Shown here: piece after piece, positions 9,800-30,724 of the stretch
Position numbering within the stretch: the first letter of the stretch is position 1
Layout of the letters: every line of letters begins with the position of its first letter
From: a virus
IMG/VR virus record: IMGVR_UViG_3300035688_000172
Coordinates: 1 to 30,724 of that record
Direction: 5' to 3' (one strand)
Length of the DNA: 30,724 nt
Position numbers and translations under genes: made by a program
Notes under the pieces: generated by a model
Told to the model about the DNA's origin: nothing
The model's input: only the letters and a program-made list of their open reading frames with translations
The model's database searches: none

Positions 9800-10759
9800 T
9801 TAGTCCTCCGCACCGGGCTGGAAGTATATGCCAGTCTTCTCCGCATCCTTTTGTTGAGCAATCCTCAGGGCAGTAATGAAGTTCTCTCCCATAAGTGGGG
9901 TCCACGGCCTGTTGAACTGCGGACATATATTCTTCGCCAGTCCCCAACACAGAGGCAGATACCACTCTTGCGGAAAATACGGATTATCCAGCGCAGTATT
10001 GAAATCTTGCACAGGCTCCATATAGGTCAGGGCGAGATGCTTAGTGACGTCCTGAGACGCCCCTGCGTCGGTATACAAGAATGAGTTTCCTAGTTGATTC
10101 TCATAGTAAATTGCAGTGGGGTCTTGAAGATTTGTTGAGTCAGCCTTGTTTGGCAGAAAATCGTAGTCCTGCACAGTCATCATCCTCAAGGGCGTATCGC
10201 TGAAGTTTGTGTCCCGAAGCACAGCGGTCTCGATGAACAGAGGCTGCTGAGCAATAGTTTGGAAAACAAAGACTTGCGCGTTCGCGGCTGCTTGGCTAGG
10301 AAGACCCGCAGTAATCGTAATCGTAACCGAAGGAGCAGTGGCTACAGTCGTCCAATACAGCGCCCCGCTATCAAGCACAATGCCGATATAGTATCCTACA
10401 GCTACTCCAGAAATGCTAGACAACACGAGTGTTGTCGCAGCAGGCGCTGCCGTAGCGGTAAGAGTCGGATAGACATAGTCATTAGTCCACCCCGTCGTGC
10501 TGCCAGGACCAATCACATATCTGCCAGTGTTGTTCTGAAGAAATAGATGCCCATGCTTACGGGTCCACATCTTCAAACCGGGAGCAAAGTCTACCTTGCC
10601 CATCCACTGCTTAACCATCATGTTGAGAGCAATACCAATGTCCTGCGTCTGGACAGCAGTGGGGCTCTCATAAGGATCTAGCTTGCCAATATTCAGCATA
10701 GCTTGCCGAATAATGTCGTCGCGGGTTACTGCGAACGCATAGGTGCCAGAAGTACTCAT
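9800..10759 (-). CDS. P22 gp4-like head completion / tail accessory protein
   Basis: The N-terminus reads VTRDDIIRQAMLNIGKLDPYE, then ALNMMVKQWMGK, the helical start typical of gp4-like head-tail adaptors, which bind under the portal ring. The middle (about 90-160) is a Thr/Ala/Val-rich beta insertion, and the C-terminal part is helical with an aromatic-rich stretch (NPYFPQEWYLPLCWGLAKN). At 319 residues it is longer than P22 gp4 (about 166 aa); the beta insertion and C-terminal extension account for this. Its start overlaps the stop of the glycosyltransferase gene (ATGA), and it is followed directly by the gp10-like gene. Confidence 0.7.
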   Translation of the reverse strand: MSTSGTYAFAVTRDDIIRQAMLNIGKLDPYESPTAVQTQDIGIALNMMVKQWMGKVDFAPGLKMWTRKHGHLFLQNNTGRYVIGPGSTTGWTNDYVYPTLTATAAPAATTLVLSSISGVAVGYYIGIVLDSGALYWTTVATAPSVTITITAGLPSQAAANAQVFVFQTIAQQPLFIETAVLRDTNFSDTPLRMMTVQDYDFLPNKADSTNLQDPTAIYYENQLGNSFLYTDAGASQDVTKHLALTYMEPVQDFNTALDNPYFPQEWYLPLCWGLAKNICPQFNRPWTPLMGENFITALRIAQQKDAEKTGIYFQPGAED

Positions 10760-12318
10760 GCCACCTTCTCCTTAGTAAGCTCTAGTAGATGGAAGGCCAC
10801 GGCGTTCCATGCGTCCTCTACAGAAATATCCGCTTGGCACTGCGCTGTGCTAGTCACTGGATCTAATTTGCAGTGCGCCCATCCGTAATGCATCTGGTGA
10901 CAGGCAGGCACACCCGCAGACCGGCCAGGACACTCGGTTTTCTTTGCCCATAGGGCAGATGTATTTACCCAATCTCGGGTCAGGTTCTCTTCGCTGGAGT
11001 GGCTAAGGAAAATGACCTTCGGCATAGGCATGCAGGATGCAGCGTTGAGAACACCAGTCTCAGGCCCAATCACAAGGTCCGCCTGCTCCAAGAACGCCAG
11101 ACTTTGACGGATGGACCACTTACCGCTGGTCTCGGTTACGCGGGGCTCTTTCTCCCACCCTTGCTCCAGTATCACACACTCCGGCCCACCACAGAGGACA
11201 ATCTGAGACGTTGGGAAGTGCAAAAGAGCGCTAGCAATGATATTGTCCAGCCCCGCCCACGTCTTATGGACGCTGCTACCAGACAACGAATACATGATAA
11301 TGGGGCCAGCGCCCATCTTTGCGCGCTCTTTCCTGGCCCACCCCTTCTCCTCCAATGTGGCATAGAATTTGACCTGTGGCTTGTGGGGTACGTCAGCAAT
11401 GGCATGCTGGAACTCCAGATAGTTTCGGCTCATCATGCTGTGTCGAACTGCGGGGGACCAAGCATGTTGAGCCCGTCCTGGCATGGCTAGCAAGGAACCC
11501 TCGACCGACTCACTAAGGTTGACAAAGCGGTCGTATTTCTTACGCTGCCATGCCCAGAAATCCCCAAGATTAGTATTGGGTATTTGATCCTTATCAAACA
11601 GAATCATCTGGTCGATGTTAGGGTCAGTCTCGACCACGACACATCCAGGGGGTGCACAATGCAGAGTCACATGGAACCCTTGATCCTTCAACCCTTTGAT
11701 GACGCTGGACGCCTGCATTAAGTCACCAAACGCACCATATCGGACAACTAACGCAGTCTTCGTAGGTTTGGGGCGCTTCCAAGACTCTGAGGTTATGCGC
11801 CCAGGCATCTTCTTGAAGATCAGAAGGAAGCTGTATTCAAAGTCTTCGTTCCGCTCTTGGCATTCAAGCAAGTCCCATCCGTGGGAGGGCATAGCGGCAA
11901 TGACGTCCTTTGGCCGAAAGTCGCGCTTGTGGTCAGGATTGGCTCCCGGCTGGCCCATGTTCGGGTAAAAGTCCGCATGTGGAAGGTACATAATCAGCAG
12001 ACCACCCTGCTTGACAATGCGCCACCATTCACGAAGAGTGGCTCCCATATCCTCCACGTGCTCTAGCGTGTGGCTGCTGTAGACCCAATCCATGGACCCA
12101 CTGGCAAGCATATCTAGCTTTGACACATCTGCAAGAATGTCCGGCTTTTGAGTGAACCCGAACTGAGCGTGGTTCATGTTATCCACACTTATGGCGTGCG
12201 GGAGAATCTTAAAGTCCCCCGCTCCCAAATCAACTCCACGGCCACGCAGATAGGGGGCAACCTCCCAGACGATCTTCTTAGACTCGTTGCACTGCGGATT
12301 GTCAATTTTCCAGACCAT
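10756..12318 (-). CDS. Fusion: SAM-dependent methyltransferase plus family 9 glycosyltransferase
   Basis: Residues 1-170 form a class I methyltransferase: SAM-binding motif RGVDLGAGD at 27-35, the acidic VDN at 45-47, and VYSSHTLEHVED at 79-90. Residues 188-515 read as a GT-B fold of the heptosyltransferase family (GT9): TALVVRYGAFGDLMQASSVIKGL at the N-domain, SLSGSSVHKTW near 344-354, IVLCGG at 373-378, and the signature DLVIGPETGVLNAASCMPMPKVIF at 414-437. GT9 enzymes usually move heptose or related sugars from nucleotide donors onto lipopolysaccharide; the acceptor here is unknown. The start overlaps the stop of the TylF-like gene (TAATG) and the end overlaps the gp4-like gene, so it is expressed with virion genes. 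Modification of a virion protein or of host glycan is inference. Confidence 0.82.
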   Translation of the reverse strand: MVWKIDNPQCNESKKIVWEVAPYLRGRGVDLGAGDFKILPHAISVDNMNHAQFGFTQKPDILADVSKLDMLASGSMDWVYSSHTLEHVEDMGATLREWWRIVKQGGLLIMYLPHADFYPNMGQPGANPDHKRDFRPKDVIAAMPSHGWDLLECQERNEDFEYSFLLIFKKMPGRITSESWKRPKPTKTALVVRYGAFGDLMQASSVIKGLKDQGFHVTLHCAPPGCVVVETDPNIDQMILFDKDQIPNTNLGDFWAWQRKKYDRFVNLSESVEGSLLAMPGRAQHAWSPAVRHSMMSRNYLEFQHAIADVPHKPQVKFYATLEEKGWARKERAKMGAGPIIMYSLSGSSVHKTWAGLDNIIASALLHFPTSQIVLCGGPECVILEQGWEKEPRVTETSGKWSIRQSLAFLEQADLVIGPETGVLNAASCMPMPKVIFLSHSSEENLTRDWVNTSALWAKKTECPGRSAGVPACHQMHYGWAHCKLDPVTSTAQCQADISVEDAWNAVAFHLLELTKEKVA

Positions 12319-12860
12319 TATCTTGTCTCCGTTACACCAGCACGAATCAGAACCTTGTTGCTCTTTGTGGCCTCAGTGATCACGAAGTGTTCGTCTACTG
12401 CGCGGGTAGCTCCCTCAAGACACGCATAGTCATCGAACACTATCATGCCTCCAGGGAGTAGTTTTGGGTACAGGTGCGTGATCACGTCCTTAACTGCTTG
12501 GTATTGATCACAATCGCAATGGACAAATGATATAGGCCCCATTTCCACAAGGGTATCAGGAAACACGCCCTTGCAGAAAATGGCGTCGGGTATAGCCGCC
12601 CGCACTTCCGCCTCGTTGACGTCCGAAAAATCGCCAACCACATGAGTATCTCCCTTCTCCACATTTCGATATGGAATACCAGTGAACGTGTCATACAAGT
12701 AGAGTGGAACGCCGCGCACTCGGGCTAGGGCCGCAAGCTGCCACGCCGTTCCCCCTCGGTATACACCTACCTCAACGATACATCCTTCTAGTGGGGTTGT
12801 TGAAGCGGCGAGGATCATACTCTCCTGCGCATCTTCTCCAACTAGAGAAAGTGGTTTCAC
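12318..12860 (-). CDS. TylF-like SAM-dependent O-methyltransferase
   Basis: The start is GTG 12860 with AGGAG upstream and a GTGA overlap with the previous stop. Motif I is GCIVEVGVYRGGTAW (26-40), followed by LYLYDTFTGIP (53-63), SFVHCDCDQYQAVKDV (111-126) and GGMIVFDDYACLEGATRAVDEHF (137-159). This order, with the paired acidic residues DCD and DDY that bind metal in the family, fits macrocin-type (TylF) sugar O-methyltransferases. The length of 180 residues is short compared with about 250 for TylF, so the N-terminal cap is reduced. Together with the adjacent methyltransferase-glycosyltransferase fusion it suggests synthesis or decoration of a methylated sugar. Confidence 0.8.
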   Translation of the reverse strand: MKPLSLVGEDAQESMILAASTTPLEGCIVEVGVYRGGTAWQLAALARVRGVPLYLYDTFTGIPYRNVEKGDTHVVGDFSDVNEAEVRAAIPDAIFCKGVFPDTLVEMGPISFVHCDCDQYQAVKDVITHLYPKLLPGGMIVFDDYACLEGATRAVDEHFVITEATKSNKVLIRAGVTETR

Positions 12861-26006: not shown

Positions 26007-26037
26007 TAGTGCTTGCGTGCAAGGCACGCAAGCACTA
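26007..26037. other. Fourteen-base-pair hairpin spanning the TerL stop codon
   Basis: Bases 26007-26020 pair perfectly with 26024-26037 around a three-base loop (AAG on the plus strand). The TerL stop (26035-26037) lies in the stem. No T-run follows on the minus strand. It may reduce read-through from TerL into the propeller gene or stabilise the message upstream. Confidence 0.8.
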
Positions 26038-27633
26038 AGTATACTCAGGCTCTAAATAACTCGGCTCGCGGAAGTTCGGCGCGTGGGGCTCCATATCATA
26101 GATGCGACTGGTCGCATCTATGACGTCCTTCTTCCCACCGAATGGGAAGAAGTGAGTCTGTAGCTTCAACTCTTTAGTCAGGTCGTAGATGTTGCCTGAC
26201 TCATCTTTTCGTCGGATGGGCTGAGCCACTCGCCACGAGTATCCAGTATTCGTGAACTTCCGTTGAACGGCTGTAAGCCGTTCGGCGACTGTTTCGTACG
26301 GGAGATAGAACTTATGCGTTCGGAGGTCTGGACCAAGCCGTTGAACGCGGTCGGACTTGCTGCCCTCAGAGTCTCGCGGCCACATCAACTCATCAATTAC
26401 AAAGTATCCTCCTCCTTGGGGGGTAGCCATCTGCTCTTGAAAGTAGTCCAGATCTGCTTGGGCACCGAAGGCCTCGTAGCCCACTTTGATATTACGGCAT
26501 CCGGGATCTCTCTTCCATTTGTGATACATCTGAGCCGTGCGCGTCCATCGCTCCCTAAGATCCATTCGATGGTTAAATCCGTCGATGAGGTACTTGTTTG
26601 AGGCATAATCTATCCCCAGAACTACGATTGCTGTCTTGTCGCTGCCCTTCTTCTTAGATCTAGCTGGATCTACCATGATGTAGATGTTGAGTGCCTCGGG
26701 GCGCACCTCGTAGACTCTGTAGTCCTCGACGTTGAACATCCGCTGCTGCCCGCTGAGCGGGTTCTGCAGAAGTTGACAGGCTACTGTTGCCTCACCCTGC
26801 GCGATTAGCTTGGCATCCCAGACTTCTTGCGGGAAGAAAATGGGGGTGCCGGTGAACGTACCGTCGTCCGTCGCGGGGTACACACGGGGGATGACTGCTT
26901 TGCGCTCCAGCATAGTCTCGTAGGTGTCGGCGTACGAATATCGCGTGCCGATATGCCACTTTCGGCCACCTGCTTTTCCCAAGTTGTCCGATAGCTCCCA
27001 AGACGTTGTTGTCTTTTGGATCTGCTCTGGTGTCGAGACTGATGCCTCAGTGACGACGTCATCGTACACGAGTAAGTCGAAGTGCTTGGATGTCGGCTGT
27101 CCGTCAACCAAACCGTGAGCCTCAATGGTTCGCTCCTTTGGGTTGGACTTTCGTCTAACTGTGAGGCCGTTGTCGAGTGACCAGCTCGGACTATCCTTAC
27201 CTGGATTGTCGTAGAAGACATCTGGGTAGAGTTTGAGCAAGTCATCATTCTTCTCCAACTCCTGCTGTATCTGGGCTAGGAACGCCTTGGCAATCGGCTT
27301 AGTGTGGCTGAAGATGCCGATGCAAATCTCAGGGTTCTTGATGACCTCTTGGATGATGCCAGCGTAGGTGATGATAGTGGACTTGTAGTGCTCCCGCGCC
27401 CAGAGGTCCAGGTATCCATCAGGCGCAGCCTCGACTTCTCGCGTGCGTGCGTACAGCCAGGGGTGGACAGCATCTAGCCTATGGAGTACGCGGACAAGCA
27501 GGTAATATCGATCGTGCGCGGCTAGCCATGCACGAGCGGCTGGCCCTCCATGCTCCTCTAAGACCCTCCAGAGCTCAGGTATGTCGCTGAACTCAGCGGC
27601 ATGCAGCTTCTGCTCAATTGAGAGTGGGTACAT
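26035..27633 (-). CDS. Terminase large subunit
   Basis: The 532-residue protein starts at ATG 27633 with GAGG about six bases upstream and overlaps TerS by 20 bases. The ATPase has a variant Walker A, AREHYKST at 79-86 (no G-x-G), Walker B FDLLVYDD at 185-192 and coupling motif WHIGTR at 226-231. The nuclease part begins IYIMVDPARSKKKGSDKTAIV with catalytic Asp322, followed by GYEAFGAQ and, near the end, KKDVIDATSRIYD with a further Asp. This is the motor that packages DNA through the portal and cuts the concatemer. The Walker A variant and order resemble T7-like and related podovirus terminases. Confidence 0.88.
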   Translation of the reverse strand: MYPLSIEQKLHAAEFSDIPELWRVLEEHGGPAARAWLAAHDRYYLLVRVLHRLDAVHPWLYARTREVEAAPDGYLDLWAREHYKSTIITYAGIIQEVIKNPEICIGIFSHTKPIAKAFLAQIQQELEKNDDLLKLYPDVFYDNPGKDSPSWSLDNGLTVRRKSNPKERTIEAHGLVDGQPTSKHFDLLVYDDVVTEASVSTPEQIQKTTTSWELSDNLGKAGGRKWHIGTRYSYADTYETMLERKAVIPRVYPATDDGTFTGTPIFFPQEVWDAKLIAQGEATVACQLLQNPLSGQQRMFNVEDYRVYEVRPEALNIYIMVDPARSKKKGSDKTAIVVLGIDYASNKYLIDGFNHRMDLRERWTRTAQMYHKWKRDPGCRNIKVGYEAFGAQADLDYFQEQMATPQGGGYFVIDELMWPRDSEGSKSDRVQRLGPDLRTHKFYLPYETVAERLTAVQRKFTNTGYSWRVAQPIRRKDESGNIYDLTKELKLQTHFFPFGGKKDVIDATSRIYDMEPHAPNFREPSYLEPEYT

Positions 27634-29301: not shown

Positions 29302-29763
29302 ATGGCAAACCACACAAAACCCACAAAGCCCGCAGCGCCCGCTGCAAAGCCCGCAGCGCCCGCTGCTAACCCCGCTGCCAGTGCGTTTACCGCGCTGGTT
29401 GCCGCAACGGTAGCGGCGCCTGTTACCGTGCAGGTACCCGCTGCTACCGTGCAGGTACCGGCCACCTTTGCTGGCGTACCCTATGCCCAGTTGCCCAAAA
29501 GCAACCAAGCACTGGCTACCGCAAAGGCCCCGGGCAAGCTGCCGGTACTGCCCCCTGCGCTTACCATAGTTGGCGCTAAGCCGTACCGAGTTGGCAAAGC
29601 GCACACTGCACAATGGTTTGCGGCATTGTGCGCTGCGGGGTGCGGCAACCCACAAGGCGCCACACAGGCGCAAATTGCAGCACTGGTGCCCGGTACCGTG
29701 CCAGCGCAATTTGTCACCTATGCGCTGCGCAACAAATGGCTGGTGCCAGCCGCTACAGCCTAA
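29302..29763 (+). CDS. Rightward Ala/Pro-rich hypothetical protein, 153 aa
   Basis: This is the only convincing gene on the plus strand. ATG 29302 has a purine-rich AGGGGG about eight bases upstream. Residues 1-60 are Lys/Pro/Ala-rich and repetitive (KPAAPAAKPAAPAANPAA; TVQVPAATVQVPA), with 21-base tandem DNA repeats at 29326-29367. The C-terminal part from about 95 (YRVGKAHTAQWFAALCAAGCG, QAQIAALVPGTVPAQFVTYALRNKWLV) is helical and could be a winged-helix-like DNA-binding domain, which is a weak guess. G+C is high (41 of 60 at 29341-29400). GGGTTARCC motifs flank it on both sides and an intrinsic terminator follows. It is probably an early gene or regulator divergent from the late block. Confidence 0.65.
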   Translation: MANHTKPTKPAAPAAKPAAPAANPAASAFTALVAATVAAPVTVQVPAATVQVPATFAGVPYAQLPKSNQALATAKAPGKLPVLPPALTIVGAKPYRVGKAHTAQWFAALCAAGCGNPQGATQAQIAALVPGTVPAQFVTYALRNKWLVPAATA

Positions 29764-29782
29764 CCCTTAGGGGTTAGTGCTT

Positions 29783-29818
29783 AGGGGTTAACCCGCAAGG
29801 GTTAACCCCTATTATTTT
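29783..29818 (+). terminator. Intrinsic terminator of the rightward gene
   Basis: A perfect 12-base stem (AGGGGTTAACCC with GGGTTAACCCCT) closes a GCAA tetraloop and is followed by ATTATTTT. It starts 20 bases after the stop of the 153-residue gene. The arms contain the GGGTTAACCC core also found upstream of the gene. Confidence 0.8.
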
Positions 29819-29876
29819 GCCCCCTACGTTAGTAAGCACCCACACCGGGAATGAGCCGAGGAGACCAAGACCAGAT

Positions 29877-30034
29877 GATCCAGGATCCAGGACTTTGAGC
29901 TCTTACTGATAATCTTTCTACTCGCGTGCGAGCGTCTGCGATCCTGGATCAGAGACTATTGAGTCTTGGATCTAGGATCAGGGAGCTCAAGCCCGATGCT
30001 CGGACTCGAAGCCTAGAGCGAAGGATCCTAGATC
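29877..30034. repeat. Four GATC-N3-GATC doublets
   Basis: GATCCAGGATC (29877), GATCCTGGATC (29940), GATCTAGGATC (29969) and GATCCTAGATC (30024) share a GATC pair exactly seven bases apart. Each is followed by a loosely similar 15-base stretch, so they look like degenerate repeats of about 25 bases. Dam-methylated GATC clusters mark some bacterial and plasmid origins. Confidence 0.65.
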
Positions 30035-30288
30035 TAAGATTCGTAGTCCTTAGTGAGAACTCTGTAACTCGCGTGAGGGTCAAAAGATTGGGTGCCCAGG
30101 GCAAGGATCGCAGCGACTGTTTTTAGCCCCACACTCAAGGAGCCCATCACTGAACTAGAAGACCTGAACTCAGACCTCAGACTAATCACTAATGATATCA
30201 CACAACTAATGGTAAACCCTAATTCAGCACGCTAATGAGTGTTGAATGTGCTACTGTGCTACAGTGCGTGCTACAGTAAAAAACGACC

Positions 30289-30558
30289 ACTGTAGCACAC
30301 TCAACCTGTTGTTTTTAAAGGCTTTTTTGTTCAATGTGCTACTGTGCTACAGTAAACCCCCCAAACCATCCAATATATAACGCGACACGTTAGGGACAGT
30401 ATATCAGAGTGGGGTAGATATAGCCGATAGGCATATAGGGGTGCTGAATATCAGCACCCCTCACCCACACCCACGTATATAATTTGAGCTACACTACTTT
30501 TACTGTAGCACATTTGCCAAAAAACCCTTTAAAAACAACAACTTGAGTGTGCTACAGT
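30289..30558. repeat. Large imperfect inverted repeat, arms of about 57-65 bases
   Basis: The reverse complement of 30289-30353 aligns with 30502-30558 over its whole length apart from one eight-base gap and a few mismatches. Both arms begin and end with an iteron unit and contain CTTTAAAAACAAC or its complement. The arms enclose about 148 bases of AT-rich sequence. Confidence 0.8.
30437..30461. other. Central hairpin with 11-bp stem
   Basis: AGGGGTGCTGA and TCAGCACCCCT pair perfectly around a three-base ATA loop, within the spacer of the large inverted repeat. No T-run follows on either side, so it is more likely a DNA structural or protein-binding element than a terminator. Confidence 0.75.
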
Positions 30559-30640
30559 AGACCATTTTTACTGTAGCACGGGACTGTAGCACACAGCACC
30601 CACTGTAGCACATTCAGCACTCTAGAGCGATGAATGTGTC

Positions 30641-30724
30641 CTAGAAGAACTTCTTAAGGTGGACTAGACACTGCTGAGTCTGCCCCCATCTCTTGTCCGC
30701 CCTGTTGCGGATCACCCAGTATCT
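30641..30724 (-). CDS. C-terminal end of a leftward gene, partial
   Basis: From the right edge a minus-strand frame of 27 codons ends at TAG 30643-30641. The peptide (RYWVIRNRADKRWGQTQQCL, then VHLKKFF) has the charge and aromatic mix of a real protein end. It stops just before the iteron region. The length is too short to name a function. Confidence 0.4.
   Translation of the reverse strand, partial: RYWVIRNRADKRWGQTQQCLVHLKKFF

Follow-up and report, generated by a model that had tools for sequence, protein, structure and literature searches.

Inverted iteron arrays with IHF-like sites as a candidate replication origin in a group of uncultivated tailed phages

What is the role of a dense cluster of short repeats at the very end of an uncultivated phage sequence? 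The cluster lies in the virus record IMGVR_UViG_3300035688_000172, whose whole length of 30,724 nucleotides was analysed and is called the window here. The record has the gene content of a tailed phage, including terminase subunits, an SU10-like portal and a major head protein, and it ends at position 30724, 113 nt beyond the repeats, with no gene shown to their right. No named phage matched it at the DNA level; its terminase has only distant named relatives, and terminase relatives are found on hundreds of uncultivated contigs. A betaproteobacterial host is plausible, because, among sequenced bacteria, Paraburkholderia, Pseudothauera and Aromatoleum have the nearest terminases. An initial annotation had proposed that the repeats form a replication origin or a partition site. 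We consider it likely that replication of this tailed phage originates at the repeats and is initiated by a self-loading superfamily 3 (SF3) primase-helicase with a DUF5906 domain, similar to those of NrS-1 and SaPI5.

Repeats and symmetry of the window element

The ten-base unit GTGCTACAGT occurs in nine exact copies on both strands, just as first described, and in two further copies with one mismatch, all within 364 bases (30248-30611; Table 1). With up to one mismatch allowed, the whole window contains 12 matches against 1.9 expected, a number reached in none of 100 shuffles. The repeats are thus real and far beyond chance. The direct repeat and the inverted repeat of the initial annotation are both present and both longer than reported, the former extending to 26 nt (96%) rather than 24 bases and the latter to 79-nt arms (86% complementary) rather than about 60. 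The 11-bp spacer hairpin was recovered as well, and the spacer, which had been called AT-rich, proved mildly so (53.5% AT over 30354-30497 vs 46.8% in the window), with the AT peaks falling on two IHF-like sites. Within positions 29763-30724 the only relaxed IHF matches are these two mirrored cores, and the DnaA box TTWTNCACA is absent. No Rfam match was found in the window, and a tRNA search returned nothing. Multi-copy arrays resembling AAACCCCTAGGT occupy the area corresponding to the terminator hairpin of the window in L007, L008, L010, L141 and L153.

Table 1. Positions of the repeat element and of other features in the window.
Feature	Position	Strand	Remarks
Whole element, candidate replication origin	30240..30611		Basis: repeats, fold, same plan in relatives
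Exact copies of GTGCTACAGT (starts)	30256, 30268, 30344, 30549	+	
Exact copies of GTGCTACAGT (starts)	30289, 30502, 30570, 30583, 30602	-	
One-mismatch copies of GTGCTACAGT	30248 and 30336		
Direct repeat	30240-30265 / 30328-30353		
Inverted repeat	30267-30345 / 30502-30580		Left arm / right arm
Outer left iterons GTGCTACTGT, GTGCTACAGT, GTGCTACAGT	30248..30277	+	Starts 30248, 30256, 30268
Opposite-orientation iteron	30289..30298	-	Hairpin partner of 30268-30277
Left IHF-like core CAACCTGTTGTTTTTAAAGGCTTTTT	30302..30327	+	Relaxed IHF match 30302-30314, - strand
Inner left iteron pair GTGCTACTGTGCTACAGT	30336..30353	+	
Spacer	30354..30501		Presumed unwinding region
Spacer hairpin AGGGGTGCTGA-ATA-TCAGCACCCCT	about 30437-30461		11-bp stem, 3-nt loop
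Inner right iteron	30502..30511	-	
Right IHF-like core	30520..30545	-	Mirror image of left core; relaxed IHF match AAACAACAACTTG 30533-30545, + strand
Outer right iterons	30549..30611		30549 (+), 30570 (-), 30583 (-), 30602 (-)
Terminase large subunit	26035..27633	-	Query for relatives
Small ORF, 153 aa	29302..29763	+	No family; points at element; homologues in seven relatives
Terminator hairpin, TTAGGGGTTAACCC type	29764-29815		After small ORF
Methyltransferase-like gene	10756-12318		Among structural genes
Methyltransferase-like gene	12318-12860		Among structural genes; also matches a glycosyltransferase family

A shared plan with changing units

About twenty uncultivated phages, retrieved by terminase, helicase or motif, share the plan of the window element: units of 6-10 nt in both orientations, IHF-like sites (in 17 of 21 elements) and a spacer. 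The recurring order is outer units, core and inner units toward the spacer, followed by the mirror image; some elements do not have both halves, and in L110 both cores point the same way. The initial annotation had named absence of the repeat at the same place in close relatives as a finding that would speak against it. The relatives gave a mixed answer: the plan is conserved, the repeat unit is not. Among the loci examined in viral contigs, searches with the 19-nt direct repeat and with inverted and tandem unit pairs found no exact window unit beside a helicase or terminase relative.

Each lineage has its own unit instead. We observed GGTAACA in L007, L015 and L153, CGTATAAC in L005, ACTGTTAC in L006, CTCTTACA in L014, CTTGTAAC in L140, GGTAACTA in L141, CCATTACA in L142, GAATACCC in L148, CGGGTACA in L152, CCCTGTA in L155, ACCTTACA in L023/L145 and AGTAGCGA in L112 and L095; GGGTACA is also among these lineage-specific units. 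The two phages that share AGTAGCGA have helicases with 63% identity to each other vs 35-40% to others, an anecdote that shared ancestry would confound. Real sequence (1.34 Mb) contained 23 clusters of 8-mers in both orientations and dinucleotide shuffles (4.03 Mb) contained none; the 23 include a few other repeats (such as the terminator-like array at L012 3835-3975) and some loci that duplicate one contig. Units that are degenerate were spotted by eye or through 6-mers (L005, L012, L021, L028, L095, L137, L150), and in a uniform scan of L143, L144 and L151 other repeats score equal to or above the iterons. Near terminase relatives, L032 (111-328) and L041 (1037-1276) carry both-orientation arrays of CGGATCCC and GTCACCGA, which are unlike the GTA-containing units.

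The inverted repeats of the relatives, which lie upstream of the terminase and have units that differ from those of the window, surround a conserved core, AAAAACCCTTTAAAAACAACAACTT. This core was found in 17 of 21 elements at six mismatches or fewer and in none of the composition shuffles. In 24 copies the invariant or nearly invariant columns read YAA, four freer positions, TTG-TW and then an A/T tract. Save for one base (T here, A in the consensus), they are the E. coli IHF consensus YAANNNNTTGATW on the other strand; because similarity guided the choice of columns, the agreement is in part circular, and its informative part is the freer middle positions. Both window cores match the IHF site WATCAANNNNTTR with its third base relaxed but not in its strict form, and the Zoogloea element L160 contains a perfect match, TAAGTGATTGATT, inside its array. 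The core is not specific to origins, since lone copies also occur close to promoters in plasmids and phages with no relation to this group, and it may be a widespread bend site. Copies without iterons stand upstream of sigma70-like promoters at L084 49-115, L106 3620-3710 and L113 4001-4080 (unrelated phages and a Cupriavidus plasmid), and comparison of the motif with named phages and plasmids gave mostly marginal E-values in unrelated contexts.

IHF-like sites flanked by short boxes also resemble the general plan of partition centromeres of the P1 parS kind, in which protein boxes flank an IHF site. P1 parS has one IHF site, whereas two mirrored ones are present here, and ParB_N matched none of 15 records (the window and five of more than 50 kb included) while the control was positive in 10 of 14 genomes; as in the integrase and Rep_3 searches below, the genomes are incomplete and absence is suggestive only. 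We regard this reading as very improbable, so that of the two functions first proposed the origin is retained and the partition site is not. Equally improbable is a phage attachment site (attP), in which a core would be combined with IHF sites and arm-type sites for an integrase, even though arrays of arm-like sites and IHF-like sites around a spacer recall the general layout of a lambda-type attP. A tyrosine integrase scored above the cut-off in none of 22 related records (five of 50-57 kb; fragments included), and the element accompanies a helicase gene instead.

Neighbourhood with a DUF5906 helicase gene

Most elements of the relatives lie within 3.5 kb of a gene for a DUF5906 SF3 primase-helicase, often directly 3' of it. 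Elements with the same plan occur near such genes in L005, L006, L007, L012, L015, L028, L095, L112, L137, L140, L141, L142, L148, L150, L152, L153 and L155. The gene encodes about 700 residues with the DUF5906 domain and, weakly, DUF3854 or Prim-Pol domains. The element is directly 3' of it in L007, L015, L112, L137, L150 and L153, 0.4 kb 3' in L141, 0.5-1.2 kb 5' in L140, L152 and L155, 5' in L028, and 2-3.5 kb away in L142, L145 and L148. It can thus stand on either side of the gene and is therefore not simply the helicase promoter. L147 (L027) has a weak array only; no convincing array was found within 3.8 kb in the close pair L136/L138, nor any array in L149, the 3' flank of which is short. 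We infer that the phage of the window also has such a gene, which would probably lie just past the right contig end.

The element appears to be linked to the replication gene and not to the packaging genes, because L095, retrieved through the core motif alone, nevertheless adjoins a helicase gene, and because the ORF downstream in L112, which was found by its helicase, looks by eye like a different terminase. The iterons appear to follow the replication module even in genomes with a module of another kind. In the Paraburkholderia prophages L156 (120-327) and L157 (1277-1550), which have related terminases, similar-looking repeats (GTTACCGA, AGCGTTAC) lie inside an initiator-like gene, which in L157 is followed by a DnaB-like helicase gene (gene naming by eye).

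Could the units instead be an operator or silencer, at which a phage or host regulator, assisted by IHF, controls transcription of a neighbouring gene? Such a role would fit the single cores that precede sigma70-like promoters in plasmids and phages with no relation to this group, and also the ORF of L005 that starts about 40 nt from the element; plasmid iterons often serve double duty. We nevertheless find an operator improbable, as no sigma70-like promoter was found inside the window element and an operator with eleven sites spread along 370 nt about a spacer would be unusual. The positions of the genes also argue against it. The initial annotation described both flanking genes as ending into the region. 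The window, which stops short of any gene on the right, shows the small ORF on the left pointing at the element; the full arrangement (helicase and small ORF both directed at the element) is seen in L007, L012 and L015. It does not extend to G009, which has diverging blocks, or to L028, L140 and L152, and in other relatives the element is 5' of the helicase or kilobases away.

Among cultured phages, Stenotrophomonas phage S1 has eleven copies of CCGCACA, five in one orientation and six in the opposite one, in arrays located 17 nt 3' of the primase gene. The arrays (L215 2471-2733) are covered by the annotated ORF gp2, which is perhaps no real gene. Related primases are also encoded by Pseudoxanthomonas PW916, Stenotrophomonas AXL_3, a Manatee Spring phage and Yuavirus Aergia, but the stretch fetched from each contained no such array. 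In Bordetella phage BPP-1, inverted GTTTGCCTC pairs surround an AT-rich centre between bbp27 and bbp28 (about 26600-26714; L219 4600-4715), about 0.5 kb from the primase gene and separate from the stem-loop proposed in the literature.

We modelled the helicase of L015 with AlphaFold (pLDDT 87.6, pTM 0.60). The best solved match of the model was the C-terminal region of the NrS-1 polymerase (E 2.4e-19), followed by the SaPI5 primase-helicase, PriRep1 bound to dsDNA and poxvirus D5/E5. Modelled alone (confidence 76.8), the last 125 residues gave weak matches, mostly to winged-helix proteins, with a best Z of 5.6 and PriRep1 second at Z 5.5. These predictions are suggestive of a C-terminal winged-helix domain in this helicase that would bind dsDNA.

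A candidate origin and its relation to known systems

The closest known kind of site appears to be the origins of self-loading SF3 helicases, namely SaPI Rep, SCCmec Cch2 and P4 alpha. In SaPI, Rep attaches through its C-terminal domain, apparently as a pair of hexamers, to iterons that lie immediately 3' of its own gene; the C-terminal domain of Cch2 binds a comparable site at a putative origin downstream of the Cch2 gene (PMC7581432). P4 alpha, which unites primase and SF3 helicase in one protein plan, binds origin repeats through a winged helix (PMC4234260). Multiple short iterons around a spacer, as expected of an SF3 origin, are present in the window and in the relatives. As in SaPI and SCCmec, short iterons accompany the gene of what would be a self-loading SF3 helicase with a C-terminal DNA-binding domain (the helicase being seen in the relatives), and the L015 model resembles SaPI5 and PriRep1 in fold. 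Unlike those systems, the present elements belong to tailed phages, have mirrored arms with IHF-like sites and a DUF5906 helicase nearest to NrS-1, and are sometimes 5' of the gene or some kilobases off. The P4 ori/crr system is likewise comparable in its primase, SF3 helicase and C-terminal winged helix on origin repeats. P4 uses two separate loci, ori and crr, and requires both, whereas one locus with inverted arms is seen here.

A further possibility is that structure rather than the units matters: the element could be a structured RNA, or an origin that acts as a cruciform or stem-loop like those suggested for pRN1 and BIP-1. Folded as single-stranded DNA, the window element reaches -103.5 kcal/mol (z = -13.8 to -16), a very strong fold. 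The plasmid pRN1 requires a stem-loop 3' of its prim-pol/SF3 gene, and a stem-loop was noted at the same place in phage BIP-1 (PMC4234260), so that both share with our elements a foldable origin candidate 3' of a primase/SF3 helicase gene. The authors of that work saw no origin-like iterons or specific binding, whereas here the units recur and fold strength does not: z ranges from -0.2 (L137) and -1.4 (L015) to the extreme of the window. With the cores of L110 pointing one way and the window lacking an Rfam match, we judge an origin or RNA defined by structure unlikely.

The initial annotation had also likened the layout to iteron origins of plasmids, which does not hold at the level of subclass. 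Iteron plasmids such as RK2, pSC101, F and P1 do have iterons, an AT-rich stretch and, in some, IHF sites. We rejected a classical origin of this type because the Rep_3 initiator matched none of 15 records (fragments included), no DnaA box is present and the units, of 7-10 nt, are in both orientations rather than in tandem. Lambda-type origins also have iterons recognised by a phage initiator, but inside its gene, an arrangement that we observed in the terminase relatives L156 and L157 and not in the DUF5906 group. Nor was there a consistent change of GC skew at the element, such as the initial annotation would have expected of an origin: among six relatives the skew extremes lie from 29 bp to many kb away, with a maximum in some and a minimum in others.

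We therefore return to the SF3 origin and suggest how it may operate. It is probable, if somewhat less so than the origin itself, that the helicase is the iteron-binding protein, its winged-helix-like C-terminal domain recognising the GTGCTACAGT units. IHF is known to bend origin DNA in iteron plasmids and at oriC (PMC4980987), and host IHF or a similar protein could bend each arm at its mirrored core and so bring the outer iterons close to the inner ones. A pair of helicase hexamers, face to face on the arms, would then melt the spacer and prime both strands, and replication would start at the element.

Origins of this kind are already known; new are the phage group, the mirrored IHF-like scaffold and the turnover of the unit while the scaffold stays. 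We tentatively put forward, as a possibility that we hold somewhat doubtful, that mirrored IHF-like sites, inverted arms and spacer form a fixed origin scaffold in which the iteron word and the recognition domain of the helicase are repeatedly replaced together. If true, each lineage would have a private origin code, perhaps because co-infecting phages or satellites compete for the initiator. The phages offer a natural series of presumed initiators and sites in which the recognition word varies and the scaffold is constant, and the cultured Stenotrophomonas phage S1 is one in which the proposed origin is testable. Inverted iteron arrays with an IHF-like core near a DUF5906 helicase gene could also serve as a sequence rule for finding origins in this uncultivated phage group. 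Taken together, the comparison suggests that SaPI, SCCmec, P4, NrS-1-like phages and the present phages share one common way of starting replication.
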